From Candidatus Hydrogenedentota bacterium (GTDB taxonomy: Bacteria; Hydrogenedentota; Hydrogenedentia; Hydrogenedentales; JAGMZX01), in NCBI GenBank assembly GCA_029556545.1, contig JAKQEQ010000180.1, forward strand, positions 1 through 14,382: DNA of 14,382 nt. The letters run 5' to 3'. Under the pieces are notes generated by a model. It saw only the letters and a program-made list of their open reading frames with translations, did no database searches and had not been told where the DNA came from. This document shows, in pieces, positions 156 to 14,382 of this stretch. The translations under genes were made by a program, and so were the position numbers. Positions within the stretch are counted from its first letter, which is position 1; each line of letters starts with the position of its first letter.

Positions 156-1160
156 TCACTCGAAGTATTCGTAGGCGTCGATGATATCGAGGTAGACGCC
201 GTCGAAGCCTACGGCAAGGATGCGGTCGAGATAGGCGTCGGGGCCGCCATAGATGATGCTTTGCCATTCGGGGTCCCAGTAGCGCACCTTGTAGTTGCCG
301 GGCCAATCGGGGTTTTGGGTGCGGAGCCACGCGGGATCGCCCGGCCGCCATGCCGACCGCCAATAGTAACGGTAACTTTCGGCTTCGCCGATACTCATGT
401 AGCACAACACGAGCCGCGTGCCTCCGTTGCTCTTGGTCTTTAATTGCGCCAGTTCCTGCGGCGTCAGGGCGGCCTCGTCGTGGAACAGGTCGATGATGAG
501 CAAATCATAGTTCGTATTCGCCAGTGCGGCTAGATACGCCGCGCGGGACGCGAACCCGCCCGGATCGAGGACATAGAGGAAATTGCGCGCCTCGGCGAGC
601 GTGGTGACATCCCCCGCGTGCACGTTATAGGGAACGGCGGGATACGGCGGGATATTGTCCAGGTCGCGGTGGTTCGCGGCTAAGGAGATAAAGCCGTGCG
701 AGGCGTTCCAGGCGTACGAGTTGTCCACGTAGGACTGGGTCGAGCAGTAGTCGGTCACGAGGGCCTCGACGCCGTGGTTCTCGGCAAGGTCGAGCATGGC
801 CAGCATGGGATTGCGTTCGGCGGCGGGCGTGGCGACGTTATCGTTGTCAAAGCCGTAGAACAGGTCCTCGCGGCCCTGCCCGTCAATCGCGGCGATGTAG
901 GCGGCGTGCGGTTGGCCGGCGGCGGTCCCGTTCAGGGTGAGCAGCGGCTCGCCGTTCTGCGGCACGACGATGAAGTCCGCGTCGGCGGCCCTGGCGTAGG
1001 CGGCGATGCCTTGGACGAAGTCGCGCATGTCCTCGCGATAGTCGCGTTCCCCCTCGCCTTCGCCTTCGCCCTCGCAGGGCGGGCACCCTGAAAGTTGCAC
1101 GGTTGAGAACGCGGCGGCAAACAGCAGCAACACGAGCCATCCGGAATGTCTTGCTTTCAT
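156..1160 (-). CDS. MJ1477/TM1410 family (GH114-like) putative glycoside hydrolase, lipoprotein, apparently circularly permuted
   Basis: This is a 334-residue exported TIM-barrel glycosidase-like protein. Residues 1-26 form a lipoprotein signal peptide: basic start, leucine-rich core and lipobox LSGC with Cys26. A short CPPC then EGEGEGEGE stretch follows (residues 30-38). The domain is recognisable from GREDLFYGF (96-104), YDLLIIDLF (218-226), LCYMSIGEAESYRYYW (252-267), WPGNYKVRYWDPEWQ (286-300) and GFDGVYLDIIDAYEYF (318-333). These match the family represented by Thermotoga TM1410 and are related to endo-alpha-1,4-polygalactosaminidases (GH114). In the usual family order the segment with DFIVVPQNG (62-70) comes after the DIIDAYEYF motif; here it comes first and the protein stops at that motif, so the barrel looks circularly permuted. 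The ATG has a strong AGGAGG (1168-1173) at 7-nt spacing, and the gene is divergent from the ligase-like gene. The substrate is not deducible; an alpha-1,4-linked amino-sugar polymer is a family-level guess. Confidence 0.85.
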   Translation of the reverse strand: MKARHSGWLVLLLFAAAFSTVQLSGCPPCEGEGEGEGERDYREDMRDFVQGIAAYARAADADFIVVPQNGEPLLTLNGTAAGQPHAAYIAAIDGQGREDLFYGFDNDNVATPAAERNPMLAMLDLAENHGVEALVTDYCSTQSYVDNSYAWNASHGFISLAANHRDLDNIPPYPAVPYNVHAGDVTTLAEARNFLYVLDPGGFASRAAYLAALANTNYDLLIIDLFHDEAALTPQELAQLKTKSNGGTRLVLCYMSIGEAESYRYYWRSAWRPGDPAWLRTQNPDWPGNYKVRYWDPEWQSIIYGGPDAYLDRILAVGFDGVYLDIIDAYEYFE

Positions 1161-8349: not shown

Positions 8350-10113
8350 CTACTCAAGGATGGCGACGCCGAAGCTGCGGGGCGGGGCGGTGAATTGGGG
8401 GCGGTCGAGGGGTATTTCGGTTCCGGTGTCGCGGTCGCCGTGGATCGTGTCCTCGGTCAGGATTCGGACGCGCGCGGCGGTGAAGTTTTCGAGGCGCACC
8501 TCGAGCGTTCGGTCGGTCGTGTTCGCCCAGAAGAGCGTGTCGCGGACGCGCGCGGCGGTGAAGCCGTCCGGGTAGGTCGAGTCGCAGCGGCGGACGATGT
8601 CGCCCGCGTTGGGGTGCCGCGTGAACGTCGCCACCGCGTGGTACACGGGGCGGACGGGCCATTCGCCGCCGAAGTCCCACAGCCCGAAACGCATGGGGGC
8701 TTTTCCGCCGGGATAGTACATTTCGTGGACGCACCAGACGCTGAACCCGGCCACGCCCGCGTTCAGCCCGGCGATGAAGCAGGCCGCCGTCCGTAGCGCG
8801 TATTCGTACTCGCGCATCATGGGGTTTTTGTCCGGCGGCTCGGTGCGCGCGTCCTGCAGGCCGAATTCCGCGACGGCGAACGGCTTGGCGGGCGTGCGCG
8901 CGCGCAGGAGTTCGACGCGGTCTCCGAAGATGCGGTCCGCGAAGGGGACCTGGGGCGGGCTGAGGTAGAAATGGGACGCGAAGAGGTCCGCCAGCGCGAA
9001 GTACGCATCGTCGCCGACGCAGCGCTGGTACCAGGCCGAGCCGTGGCCGTCGTCGCTGCCGACGATGTTGACGGTGAGGCCGCGCCGCCGGCATTCAGCC
9101 TTCACGAGGCGGTGTATTTCGCGATAGCGGTCGAAGGTGTTGCCCGCGGGCGCATAGAAGAGGTTCGGTTCGTTCGTGAGTGTCCAGTCGCGGACGCAGG
9201 TGTAGCCCTTCGTGACGATGAGATGTTCGAGCAGCGCGCCAATCGCGCGCGCCAGTCGATCCGGGTCGGCGAAGGTATCCGGCATGGCCCACTCGACGCC
9301 GCAGATGGTGACGCGCGCGCCGATTTTCTGGTAGAGGTCGAGGGTGCGGTAGTGACTCCGCATGTTGTCGCTGTCCCACGTGAAGGTCGCGGCGTCGAGG
9401 TTGGGGTCCCAGTCGCGATACCAGAAGAACATGCGGACCCAGTCGGGTGCGAGCCACGCGATGCGTTCTTCGCGCAGGGCGATTGCGGCGTCGTCCGCGC
9501 CGCGCGCGGTGTTTTCCGCGTTGTAGAACCAGCCGTCGTCCTCGAAGCCGAAGCCGACCAGCGCGTCACAGACGGTCTCGTCGGTGACGCGAACCGTGAC
9601 GACGCCGTCCTCGGGCGGCTCGGCGGCCGCGCCGAGGTCGCGCAGCACCGGCTCGCGAAAGTACGCCGCGCCGCGGCCGTGCAACACCGGGATAAAGCGC
9701 ATGGTTGCGGCGTCGGGCGGCGCTTCGGCGCGCAGGACCAGCCGCGTCCATGGCAGGATTTCGCGGTTGCAGTACTCGTCGGAGTGGGCGATGCGCCGGT
9801 CGTCGGCGTCGTAGAAGCCTACCGAGAGTCCCGCGCCCGCGCCGTCGCGCAGGTTCTCTCCGAGGATGCGCACGGACGCCTCGAAGCGTTGACCCGGCGC
9901 GGCGGGGAAGCGCCGCACGGCCTGATGCCACGATACGGCCTGGTCCTCGCCGACGGTGATGCGGATGGCGCTTCCCGCGTCCGTCTGGACGAGGTCCACG
10001 CGCGCGTCCTCGGGCCAGCGGGCCCACGCGGCGAACGTGTCCGGCGTCAAGGTTTCCTCCAAGAGATTCACGGGCTGGGCGATCCAAAGCAACAGCGGCA
10101 ATAGGGCGATCAT
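8350..10113 (-). CDS. Secreted clan GH-A glycoside hydrolase with N-terminal carbohydrate-binding-like domain
   Basis: A 587-residue exported protein. Residues 1-13 are a short signal peptide (MIALLPLLLWIAQ); residues 20-160 form a beta-sandwich of the CBM4/9-like or galactose-binding type. A (beta/alpha)8 catalytic domain covers about 180-500, and a C-terminal beta domain (about 505-587) is typical of GH39/GH30/GH51-like enzymes. The likely acid/base is Glu315 in DWTLTNEPN and the likely nucleophile Glu416 in FAVAEFGLQD, the spacing expected for clan GH-A retaining enzymes. The CAZy family cannot be fixed by eye. The open frame extends to 10491, but the extra Arg/Pro-rich sequence is a shadow of the upstream gene. 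I chose ATG 10113 because it starts the signal peptide, has GGGGA at 6-nt spacing, and overlaps the upstream metallophosphoesterase stop by ATGA, implying translational coupling. Confidence 0.87.
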   Translation of the reverse strand: MIALLPLLLWIAQPVNLLEETLTPDTFAAWARWPEDARVDLVQTDAGSAIRITVGEDQAVSWHQAVRRFPAAPGQRFEASVRILGENLRDGAGAGLSVGFYDADDRRIAHSDEYCNREILPWTRLVLRAEAPPDAATMRFIPVLHGRGAAYFREPVLRDLGAAAEPPEDGVVTVRVTDETVCDALVGFGFEDDGWFYNAENTARGADDAAIALREERIAWLAPDWVRMFFWYRDWDPNLDAATFTWDSDNMRSHYRTLDLYQKIGARVTICGVEWAMPDTFADPDRLARAIGALLEHLIVTKGYTCVRDWTLTNEPNLFYAPAGNTFDRYREIHRLVKAECRRRGLTVNIVGSDDGHGSAWYQRCVGDDAYFALADLFASHFYLSPPQVPFADRIFGDRVELLRARTPAKPFAVAEFGLQDARTEPPDKNPMMREYEYALRTAACFIAGLNAGVAGFSVWCVHEMYYPGGKAPMRFGLWDFGGEWPVRPVYHAVATFTRHPNAGDIVRRCDSTYPDGFTAARVRDTLFWANTTDRTLEVRLENFTAARVRILTEDTIHGDRDTGTEIPLDRPQFTAPPRSFGVAILE

Positions 10114-11272: not shown

Positions 11273-12082
11273 TTAGCCGCCCAGCAGCCGCAGCGTCGAC
11301 TGCGGGGTCGCGTTGCTTTGGATGAGCGCGGCGAGACCGGCCCGCTGGAGCAACTGCCCGCGCGTCCGATCGATGACGCCGAGCGCAATATCGAGATCGC
11401 GGATGCGCGATTCCGCTTCGCGCGCGTTCTGCCCTTGCGTCTCCCGCTGGCGGATGGCGCTTTCGAAGCGATTCTGCTGCGCGCCGAGGCCCGCGCGGCT
11501 CTGGTCGATCCGGTTGAGCGCCGTATCGAGCGTGCCGAGCGCCGCCTGCGCGCCCGCCTGCGTGCCGAGGTCGAGACCGGCGATTCCGAGCGCGCCCGCC
11601 GTCGATTCCGGCAGATTGACCTGGATGCCGCCTTCCGTGCCCAGGCCGATGGTCGGCGTGCTCCCGTTCAGCAATTGTGTGCCGTTGAATTCCGTGTTCT
11701 CGCCGATGTCGCCAATCTGCTCGATCAGTTGCTGGGCTTCGGCGTTGATGGCCTGGCGGTCCGCGTCGCTGAGCGTGCCGTTCGACGCCTGGAGCGCCAA
11801 TTCGCGAAGCCGCTGCGTCGCCTCCTGCTGCACGGACAGCCCGCCTTCCGCCGTCTGCACGACGCTCACCCCGCTCTGCAGGTTGTTGATCTCGACCTGC
11901 GACTGCCGCGCCAGCGCGTTGAGCCGTTCCGCGATGGCGAGCCCCGCCGCGTCGTCCGCCGCGCGGTTGATGCGCAGGCCGGTCGAGAGCCGGCGGAGCG
12001 AGGTTTCGACCAGGCCGCTCGCATTGCGCGTCTGGCGGTCGGCGTTCAAGGCGGGAATATTCGAATTGATGCGCAATCCCAT
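11273..12082 (-). CDS. fliC/hag-like: Flagellin, minimal form
   Basis: A 269-residue flagellin subunit of the flagellar filament. The N-terminal D0/D1 part (1-140) has the standard pattern: LRINSNIPALNA, SLRRLSTGLRINRAADDAAGLAIAERL, QSGVSVVQTAEGGL, RLRELALQASNGTLSDADRQAI and EFNGTQLLNG. The C-terminal D1/D0 part (about 175-269) has ALNRIDQSRAGLGAQQNRFESA, SRIRDLDIAL and the terminal RLLGG. Only about 35 residues link the halves, so surface-exposed D2/D3 domains are absent. Start ATG 12082 has GGGAGG (12090-12095) at 7-nt spacing. No other flagellar gene, FliW or CsrA lies in the window, so this is a detached flagellin locus. No strong terminator was seen after the stop. Confidence 0.95.
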   Translation of the reverse strand: MGLRINSNIPALNADRQTRNASGLVETSLRRLSTGLRINRAADDAAGLAIAERLNALARQSQVEINNLQSGVSVVQTAEGGLSVQQEATQRLRELALQASNGTLSDADRQAINAEAQQLIEQIGDIGENTEFNGTQLLNGSTPTIGLGTEGGIQVNLPESTAGALGIAGLDLGTQAGAQAALGTLDTALNRIDQSRAGLGAQQNRFESAIRQRETQGQNAREAESRIRDLDIALGVIDRTRGQLLQRAGLAALIQSNATPQSTLRLLGG

Positions 12083-12280: not shown

Positions 12281-12349
12281 ATGACGACCGTGGCGCGGTG
12301 GGAAAGAAGTGCGATCAGCAGGGTATGGGCATCCCGCGGAGGTGAGTGA
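12281..12349 (+). CDS. Possible 22-residue leader peptide
   Basis: Inside the long leader, an ATG with GGAG (12272-12275) at 5-nt spacing opens a 22-codon frame, rich in Arg and with two Trp, ending in TGA at 12347-12349. That stop lies in the loop of a 7-bp hairpin (12335-12341 with 12350-12356), and the main gene starts 26 bases further on. The layout resembles translation-dependent leader control, but a frame this short can occur by chance. Confidence 0.25.
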   Translation: MTTVARWERSAISRVWASRGGE

Positions 12350-12356
12350 CTCCGTG
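12335..12356 (+). promoter_or_regulatory. Leader hairpin upstream of the repeat-protein ribosome site
   Basis: CGCGGAG pairs with CTCCGTG (one G-U pair) around an 8-nt loop. It stands 7 bases before the GGGAGG (12364-12369) of the main gene and encloses the stop codon of the short leader frame. It is not followed by a T run, so it is not a terminator. Confidence 0.35.
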
Positions 12357-12375
12357 GTTGCCCGGGAGGCGTGTC

Positions 12376-14382
12376 ATGGGCGATAAGGCTGGTATTCCAG
12401 GGGGATTCTTACTCGTCATGTGTGTCTTGGCTCTGGGGGCCGTATTTGCGGCCAGTGCGGCGGCGGACTACACGTTGACGATTAACGTCGTGGGGCAGGG
12501 GACGACGACGCCCGCGCCAGGCGATCACACGTATCCGGGGGGGACCTTCGTGTCCCTCGATGCCTTCCCCGACCCGGGCTGGGCCTTCGATCAGTGGCAA
12601 GGGGCGGCGGTCGGGACGCTGCCGAGCGCGGCGGTTGTCATGGACGCGGACAAGACCGTGACCGCGGTGTTTGTCGAAGGCGGGTACATGCTGGTCATCA
12701 GCGTGGACGGGATTGGGACGACCTCGCCGCCGGAAGGGACGCACTTCTACGTGCCGGGCAGAACGGTATACGTCGCGGCCTATCCCAGTATCGGCGTGTC
12801 CGTGTTCGATCACTGGGAGGGCGACCTGACCGGCACGGACCGGCAGCAGGAACTGCTGATGGACGCGGACAAGACGGTCGTGGCGGTCTTCGCGGCGGCG
12901 GAGAACTTCACACTGACCACCGCGGTCGTCGGCAACGGAAGCATTTCGCCGGCTGCGGGCGCGCATACGTTCCTGCGCGGAACGGTTGTGCCCATACGGG
13001 CGTTCGGCGATCCGGGCTGGGCCTTCGACCATTGGGAAGGCGACCTGAGCGGCACGAACCAGTTCAATCAGATGGTGACAATGGACGCGGACAAGTCCGT
13101 GACCGCCGTATTTGTGGCGCAGGATCACAGTATCACCATCGGCGTGATGGGGGGCGGGCAGACCATTCCGCCACCGGGGACCTATGGGGCGCTGGACGGG
13201 AGGGAGTTTCATGTGGTCGCCACCACGGCGCCGCCCGTGCCGCCGAACATCGTGTTCGACCACTGGGAAGGCGACTTCACCGGGTCCGAGAACCCCGCCG
13301 TGCTGGTCATAGACGGCGATAAGGCCCTCACCGCGGTGTTTATCGAGGTCGTGGACGAGCGCACCTTGACCATGCTCGTGGACGGCGCGGGCACGGTGGA
13401 CCCGCCGGGCACGACGACGCATCCGCTGGGCGCGGCGGTCACGATCACGGCCTTCCCGGAACCGGGCTGGGAATTTGTCGAGTGGCAGGGCAACTGGACG
13501 GGGTCGACGAATCCCGACACCGTCACGATGGACTTCGACCGCACGATTACGGCGGTGTTCGCGCCCGCGACCGGCGACCACACGCTGACGACGTCGGTGA
13601 TCGGCGGGGGGACCATCTCGCCCGAGGCCGGCGCGCATGTCTATGGTCACGGGACCGAGGTCGAGGTTGCGGCGACGCCGAACGTGGGCTGGTATTTCAG
13701 CCATTGGGAGGGCGATCTGTCGGGTTCGGCCAACCCGGCCACGGTTGTTATGGACGGGGACAAGATGGTGACGGCCGTGTTCGAGCAGTTGAACTACTTG
13801 CTGACCACGGTCGTCGTGGGGGGCGGGGTCATGGACCCGCCGGCGGGTTCGCATTCGTATGTCGGGGGCACGGAGGTGACGGTCTCGGCGGCGGCGAACG
13901 CCGGCTGGGCCTTCGGCCACTGGGAAGGCGACCTGAGCGGCGACGAGAATCCCACCGTAATCGTCATGGACAACGACAAGACGGTCATCGCCGTTTTCGA
14001 TCAGTTCAGCTACACGTTGGCGATTGCCGTCGTCGGCGAGGGAACGGTAATACCCGGGCCGGGCGAACACGTGTATCTTTCGGGAACGCCGGTTCTCGTG
14101 AGCGCGGGCGGGGACCCGGGGTGGGACTTTGATCGTTGGGAAGGCGATCTGACGGGGTCGACGAACCCCGCTACTATTGTGATGGACGCGGACAAGTCCG
14201 TGACGGCGATTTTCGCGCAATCCGGCGAAGGCGAAGGCGAAGGTGAGGGTGAGGGTGAGGGTGAGGGCGAAGGTGAGGGTGAGGGTGAGGGCGAAGGTGA
14301 GGGTGAGGGTGAGGGCGAAGGCGAAGGAGAGGGTGAGGGTGAGGGTGAGGGCGAGGGTGAAGGCGAGGGCGAGGGCGAAGGA
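12376..14382 (+). CDS. Exported protein with eight InlB B-repeat-like domains and Gly-Glu tail (runs off the window)
   Basis: The frame stays open from ATG 12376 to the last base: 669 codons without a stop, so the 3' end is missing. GGGAGG (12364-12369) lies 6 nt before the ATG. Residues 1-30 form a signal peptide (hydrophobic FLLVMCVLALGAVFAA, then SAAAD, a probable cleavage site). Residues 32-616 are eight tandem repeats of 71-78 residues of the divergent InlB B-repeat/Flg_new_2 type: TLT...VVG.GT..P..G.H.Y..GT.V...A.P..GW.F..WEGDL.G..NP..V.MD.DK.VTAVF. Residues 617-669 alternate Gly and Glu without exception. The protein is probably secreted or surface-displayed; an adhesin or cell-surface scaffold is plausible, and a catalytic or anchoring domain may lie past the Gly-Glu tail. 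It is divergent from flagellin. The antisense strand carries a long open frame (12409-14220), which is a coding shadow. Confidence 0.9.
   Translation, partial: MGDKAGIPGGFLLVMCVLALGAVFAASAAADYTLTINVVGQGTTTPAPGDHTYPGGTFVSLDAFPDPGWAFDQWQGAAVGTLPSAAVVMDADKTVTAVFVEGGYMLVISVDGIGTTSPPEGTHFYVPGRTVYVAAYPSIGVSVFDHWEGDLTGTDRQQELLMDADKTVVAVFAAAENFTLTTAVVGNGSISPAAGAHTFLRGTVVPIRAFGDPGWAFDHWEGDLSGTNQFNQMVTMDADKSVTAVFVAQDHSITIGVMGGGQTIPPPGTYGALDGREFHVVATTAPPVPPNIVFDHWEGDFTGSENPAVLVIDGDKALTAVFIEVVDERTLTMLVDGAGTVDPPGTTTHPLGAAVTITAFPEPGWEFVEWQGNWTGSTNPDTVTMDFDRTITAVFAPATGDHTLTTSVIGGGTISPEAGAHVYGHGTEVEVAATPNVGWYFSHWEGDLSGSANPATVVMDGDKMVTAVFEQLNYLLTTVVVGGGVMDPPAGSHSYVGGTEVTVSAAANAGWAFGHWEGDLSGDENPTVIVMDNDKTVIAVFDQFSYTLAIAVVGEGTVIPGPGEHVYLSGTPVLVSAGGDPGWDFDRWEGDLTGSTNPATIVMDADKSVTAIFAQSGEGEGEGEGEGEGEGEGEGEGEGEGEGEGEGEGEGEGEGEGEGEGEGEGEGEG
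12469..14223 (+). repeat. Eight tandem InlB B-repeat-like units (coding)
   Basis: Unit starts are 12469, 12685, 12907, 13126, 13360, 13579, 13795 and 14011; lengths are 72, 74, 73, 78, 73, 72, 72 and 71 codons. Each ends in a D.DK.VTAVF-like strand and begins with an aromatic, His or Arg residue followed by alternating hydrophobics. Unit 4 is the most divergent, with an insertion (PPVPPN). DNA identity is patchy: a 39-bp block in unit 3 (13015-13053) matches unit 7 (13903-13941) at 37 of 39 positions. Confidence 0.92.
14224..14382 (+). repeat. Gly-Glu hexanucleotide tandem repeat, reaching the window end
   Basis: Fifty-three codons alternate Gly (GGC/GGT/GGA) and Glu (GAA/GAG), a 6-bp repeat of 26.5 units. 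Between 14248 and 14319 there is a higher-order 24-bp unit, (GGTGAG)x3 + GGCGAA, present as three perfect copies. Outside that block synonymous codons vary, so protein alternation is kept while DNA differs. The array may be longer than shown. Confidence 0.97.

Follow-up and report, generated by a model that had tools for sequence, protein, structure and literature searches.

Related enzymes and precedents

The closest described relatives of the protein reported here are TM1410 (TmGH191) and Env-GH191, barrel enzymes of glycoside hydrolase family GH191 that belong to TIGR01370. Asp156 and Glu225 are the putative active-site residues of TmGH191 (PMC12054363). Endo-α-1,4-galactosaminidase activity has been demonstrated within GH191 for Env-GH191 only, on Pel, and TmGH191 was inactive on GAG in the same study (PMC12054363). 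GH114 sensu stricto (Ega3, PF03537) and GH166 (PelA) have the same fold and an equivalent catalytic pair (PMC12054363). A natural circular permutation of a (β/α)8 glycoside hydrolase is known from the GH70 glucansucrases, which are permuted relative to GH13 with the cut after β3 (PMC4919382, PMC11046441).

The window analysed here is the whole stretch of 14,382 nucleotides of contig JAKQEQ010000180.1, from a Candidatus Hydrogenedentota bacterium. A gene at its start was confirmed to encode a natural circular permutation of the TM1410/GH191-type barrel, in which strands 5–8 are followed by a linker and then by strands 1–4. The protein resembles TM1410 and Env-GH191 in sequence family, in the barrel, in the β3 insertion with its Trp loop and in the catalytic Asp and Glu; it differs from them in that the half-barrels are swapped, the new termini lie beside the nucleophile and the β1-β2 segment is longer. 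GH114 sensu stricto and GH166, unlike this protein, have the canonical order, and GH114 forms a separate clade on the tree. The closest precedent is GH70 versus GH13, in which a β-α loop is likewise cut, unpermuted near relatives are known and permutation by duplication has been proposed, whereas the family is unrelated and the cut described here falls after β4, with no extra domains. A search of open-access articles found no published mention of a permuted GH114 or GH191 protein, and the word is absent from the GH191 structure paper (PMC12054363).

The gene and its surroundings

The gene is an open reading frame on the minus strand (1160..156) with its stop codon at 156–158, and its annotated parts are listed in Table 1. 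A comparison with an ortholog from the same genus gave a dN/dS of approximately 0.15, which indicates purifying selection on the gene.

Table 1. Features of the permuted GH191-type gene (positions are those of the window).
Feature	Position	Strand	Basis
Whole gene: lipoprotein, circularly permuted TM1410/GH191-type (β/α)8 barrel, 334 aa	156..1160	-	TIGR01370 match (185.3 bits) split into two swapped stretches
Predicted signal peptide and lipobox (LSGC, Cys26), residues 1–26	1083..1160	-	Sequence inspection
Gly-Glu spacer, residues 30–38	1047..1073	-	Sequence; low pLDDT (residues 1–36 < 50)
B half, canonical strands 5–8, residues 39–170	651..1046	-	TIGR01370 178–276, E 3.5e-11; fold superposition on Env-GH191 and TM1410
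Pro-rich linker, residues 171–192, old C-terminus to old N-terminus	585..650	-	Rotation optimum 173–184
A half, canonical strands 1–4, residues 193–334	159..584	-	phmmer to TM1410, E 4.6e-29; superposition on TM1410; PF03537, 59.5 bits
Glu98, aligned with putative general acid/base TmGH191 Glu225	867..869	-	Alignment; catalytic assignment PMC12054363
Asp325, aligned with putative nucleophile TmGH191 Asp156; nine residues before the C-terminus	186..188	-	Alignment; PMC12054363
Trp286, counterpart of TmGH191 Trp121 (loop residue over the active site)	303..305	-	Alignment; PMC12054363

Several other features were observed in the window. An 86-base REP/MITE-like element occupies 40–125 and contains two strong hairpins (fold z −3.1); it has approximately 20 matches in the genome, of which the full-length ones are 98–100% identical and several lie at contig ends. 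A secreted protein with no Pfam match is encoded at 8350–10106 on the minus strand, and its motifs WTLTNEPNLF and VAEFGLQD resemble, by eye, a GH39/GH5-type glycosidase barrel. A short flagellin of 269 aa, made up essentially of just the conserved N- and C-terminal helical regions, lies at 11273–12082 (minus strand), while 12346–14382 holds seven divergent InlB B-repeats (Flg_new_2) and then a (Gly-Glu)n tandem repeat where the contig ends.

Sequence evidence for the swapped halves

The NCBIfam profile TIGR01370 (MJ1477/TM1410) matched the protein with 185.3 bits, above its curated cut-off of 181.25 bits, and did so in two stretches of reversed order: profile positions 53–175 were found at 162–545 of the window and positions 178–276 (E 3.5e-11) at 735–1061. 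In phmmer comparisons with the solved TM1410 structures (2aam, 9eux, 9euz), residues 212–333 aligned with the N-terminal half (E 4.6e-29 against 2aam) and residues 40–78 with the C-terminal half. In a rotation scan against a profile of canonical relatives (A2), the native chain scored 192.6 bits, and a maximum of 296.2 bits was reached when the chain was opened at residue 177, a point inside the linker; the unpermuted control, L130, obtained its top score unrotated. The reversed profile stretches, the phmmer halves and the controlled rotation scan demonstrate that the swap is real and far beyond chance.

The preliminary description had proposed such a swap from the order of the motifs, with a Pro-rich linker joining the old termini. 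All of these motifs are present in the order given there, the residue numbers are correct (E98, W286 and D325 were checked), and the rotation optimum within the linker bears out its role. Sequence, rotation scan, structure prediction and the superposition of both halves on TM1410 agree on the swap. The linker is approximately 21 residues long here; outside Alphaproteobacteria, nearly all permuted proteins have one of 19–23 residues, while in the alphaproteobacterial ones its length is more variable (17–79 residues).

The family label of the preliminary description, TM1410/GH114-type, needs one refinement: the protein is of the TM1410 type, and the current CAZy family for TM1410 is GH191 (PMC12054363), not GH114. 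Of the features of GH191, the protein shows a score above the curated cut-off, the predicted three-stranded β3-α3 insertion, the Asp at the end of β4 and the Glu; its half order, β5-8 and then β1-4, is not the canonical one, and we therefore class it as a permuted GH191 derivative and not as an ordinary member. It does not belong to GH114 sensu stricto, as the Pfam profile PF03537 matched partially (59.5 bits, residues 217–331 only, profile positions 19–119 of 231) and the protein stands apart from the GH114 sequences L165–L167 on the tree.

Predicted structure and superposition

An AlphaFold2 model built with 19 aligned sequences presented a complete barrel of eight strands (pLDDT 88.5, pTM 0.85), which suggests that the two halves close one barrel as usual. 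In the model, canonical strand 3 is followed by three additional short strands (E259–261, E279–282 and E289–292), and these strands, lying between E250–256 and H297, match the GH191 β3 insertion (PMC12054363). Model residues 154–334, which include the A half, superposed on TM1410 29–165 over 132 residues (1.6 Å, Z 9.6–9.7). The N-terminal half was also folded separately (residues 38–190, pLDDT 93.8); it superposed on TM1410 170–312 over 133 residues (1.9 Å, Z 12.0) and on Env-GH191 338–468 over 129 residues (1.7 Å, Z 13.5), as well as on PelA (Z 8.1) and Ega3 (Z 6.8). Between them, the two halves span TM1410 residues 29–312, in swapped order.

Sequential aligners matched the full model to TM1410 over one half at a time only, and they returned no whole-chain match to it. 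The full model aligned with unrelated TIM barrels over its whole length (residues 55–331, Z 11.8), as expected of a complete barrel. The structural comparison proposed in the preliminary description has thus yielded a complete barrel that fits TM1410 half by half, in swapped order. Each half is present once, in swapped position, and superposes on an unpermuted structure, which is what defines a circular permutation, with the closure of the barrel read from the predicted model.

Catalytic residues, lipid anchor and function

The alignment showed that the catalytic pair is retained in reversed order, Glu98 preceding Asp325. Asp and Glu are invariant in 35 aligned canonical proteins and are kept in all permuted proteins from outside Alphaproteobacteria (58/58); the pair is intact in none of the nine alphaproteobacterial permuted proteins. 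Of 67 permuted proteins, 35 have a lipobox by a strict pattern, none of them alphaproteobacterial.

Given that the cut lies within a β-α loop, the new termini would be placed at the catalytic face. The fold therefore predicts a lipid anchor on the catalytic face and an active site turned toward the cell surface, opposite to the arrangement in canonical GH191 lipoproteins. A lipid anchor at a new end had been proposed previously; the anchor itself is not new, as TM1410 also starts with a lipobox-like sequence, and it is the face of the barrel carrying it that appears to have changed.

We consider it very probable that the protein is a GH191-type glycosidase and surface lipoprotein, permuted once, most simply by duplication and truncation. 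It would be a retaining endo-α-1,4-galactosaminidase that acts on exopolysaccharide rich in galactosamine, Glu98 being its acid/base and Asp325 its nucleophile, and the placement of the lipid anchor on the catalytic instead of the opposite face would direct the active site toward the cell surface. Endo-α-1,4-galactosaminidase activity at the cell surface is suggested by analogy, because one GH191 enzyme cleaves Pel, and this step is uncertain since TmGH191 was inactive in the same study.

It is quite possible, if less than probable, that the permuted GH191 fold serves another substrate or forms a carbohydrate-binding protein, and is not a galactosaminidase. GH191 activity is known for one enzyme only, with TmGH191 inactive on GAG (PMC12054363), and the catalytic pair is not intact in any of the nine alphaproteobacterial permuted members; against this, the present protein retains the Asp, the Glu and the loop Trp, and all members from outside Alphaproteobacteria retain Asp and Glu. 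The gene neighbourhoods, which also bear on another function, presented no partner shared across phyla and no conserved exopolysaccharide genes, their signal being lineage synteny in one Bacteroidota group only (leucine biosynthesis genes, RecQ).

Distribution of the permuted form

The permutation has a wide distribution that takes in Bacteroidota and several other bacterial groups. In the source phylum (68 genomes of one order, 44 genera), the family was detected at the profile threshold in 16 genomes and was permuted wherever the order was readable; no canonical copy was seen among the 68 genomes. The source genome carries a second permuted copy, L161 15993–19028 (G000 contig 19). In L161, one open reading frame of approximately 1000 aa encodes a reprolysin-like metalloprotease domain and (GE)n spacers, followed by the permuted GH191 domain.

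Within Bacteroidales, 41 of 295 genomes contained the permuted form and six a canonical-type match only, while the corresponding counts in a Bacteroidota-wide set were 20/296 and 1/296. The canonical form dominates in Planctomycetes (24 genomes), where the permuted one is rare (G761, G1247), and permuted forms were also found in one Zodletone bacterium MAG and on one contig of a 'Gemmatimonadaceae' MAG. Approximately 15 of 289 alphaproteobacterial genomes showed a divergent permuted-type match across the junction, nine of which were read as proteins. Canonical forms occur in Chloroflexota, archaea, Planctomycetes, Deltaproteobacteria, Alphaproteobacteria and others.

The alphaproteobacterial proteins L039, L134–L140 and L144, many from genomes of 1.2–2.3 Mb, are divergent permuted GH191-type proteins and candidate pseudoenzymes. 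In L158 and L160, the alphaproteobacterial permuted gene overlaps an upstream gene of 539 aa, identified by Pfam as a phosphoglucomutase in L158.

Origin of the permutation

A first tree was built from 102 proteins with both halves re-joined in canonical order, and one change of order sufficed to explain it. A second tree of 68 proteins was rooted on GH114 sensu stricto (L165–L167, canonical order), and the permuted proteins formed one clade (100/98) nested within canonical GH191. They were monophyletic in 100% of the bootstrap trees from the concatenated halves. The nested position on a rooted tree indicates that the permuted order is derived from canonical GH191, and the sequences point to what is apparently one origin. 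The question of whether other permuted members exist and form one clade, raised in the preliminary description, is thereby answered in the affirmative.

The nearest canonical relatives are the unpermuted sister clade L126–L131. The β1-β2 segment is 20 residues long in this clade and 19–20 in the permuted proteins, compared with 11–16 in other canonical proteins, and a YRQDM motif before α4 is common to both groups. The spacing from the nucleophile to the B half is 32–34 residues in L126–L131 versus 17–27 in 29 of 30 other canonical proteins. The simplest reading of these sequences is that the β4-α4 loop, which was later cut, had already been enlarged before the permutation.

The permutation would have begun with a tandem duplication of a canonical GH191 gene, followed by an in-frame fusion that joined the old C- and N-termini in what is the present linker, and by loss of the outer halves, which would have placed the break in the β4-α4 loop. 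No intermediates of such a duplication (A-B-A or B-A-B within a single reading frame) were detected among 100 proteins of two-half loci from 1731 genomes searched, and none in the class of the sister clade among the matches listed.

A real permutation with several origins, such as a separate one in the alphaproteobacterial branch, is improbable. The A-half tree requires one change of order and the B-half tree two, the latter without support, and the alphaproteobacterial members, which sit on long branches, are highly divergent and have more variable linkers; the concatenated trees nevertheless require a single change, and the cut point and a 19-residue spacer are the same in 9/9 alphaproteobacterial members. 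Still less likely is a permuted order ancestral for GH191, with that of TM1410 derived. The permuted form is common in Bacteroidota, as the Bacteroidales counts show, but GH114 sensu stricto is canonical and roots the tree among canonical GH191, Asp precedes Glu in Ega3, Sph3 and PelA (PMC12054363), and the canonical order is found in archaea and in more phyla. The preliminary description had named an order both ancestral and common as evidence against its own reading: the order is common in Bacteroidota and the source phylum, and it is not ancestral, being that of a derived clade inside canonical GH191.

Two further readings carry next to no weight. A fusion in which the GH114/GH191 relic is confined to the C-terminal half might be suggested by the partial PF03537 match and by the A half dominating most searches, but an unrelated N-terminal domain is refuted by the TIGR01370 match to that half and by its predicted fold on TM1410 and Env-GH191. 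The gene stops 156 bases short of the contig end, adjoining the dispersed repeat, but an assembly artefact or decaying gene is refuted by the recurrence of the architecture in more than 60 independent genomes (several on contigs of 1–3.7 Mb), by the paralogue in the same genome and by the dN/dS of 0.15.

Implications

A broader scenario, which we consider possible but less likely than not, is that a single ancient permutation moved the anchor to the catalytic face and so created a new class of surface glycosidases that spread through Bacteroidota and the source phylum, while the branch in small-genome Alphaproteobacteria may have lost catalysis and taken on a binding or scaffolding role.

Natural circular permutation is rare among TIM-barrel glycosidases, and GH70/GH13 is the textbook case. 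The GH191-type proteins provide a second one, a clean case of two halves with no domain inserted, apparently of a single origin and represented by dozens of living members. As Pfam covers half of such proteins, canonical-order searches undercount them. The sister proteins L126–L131, with their enlarged β4-α4 loop, are well suited to experimental permutation. With an extant unpermuted sister group whose loop is already larger where the cut was made, the steps of the permutation are directly testable.
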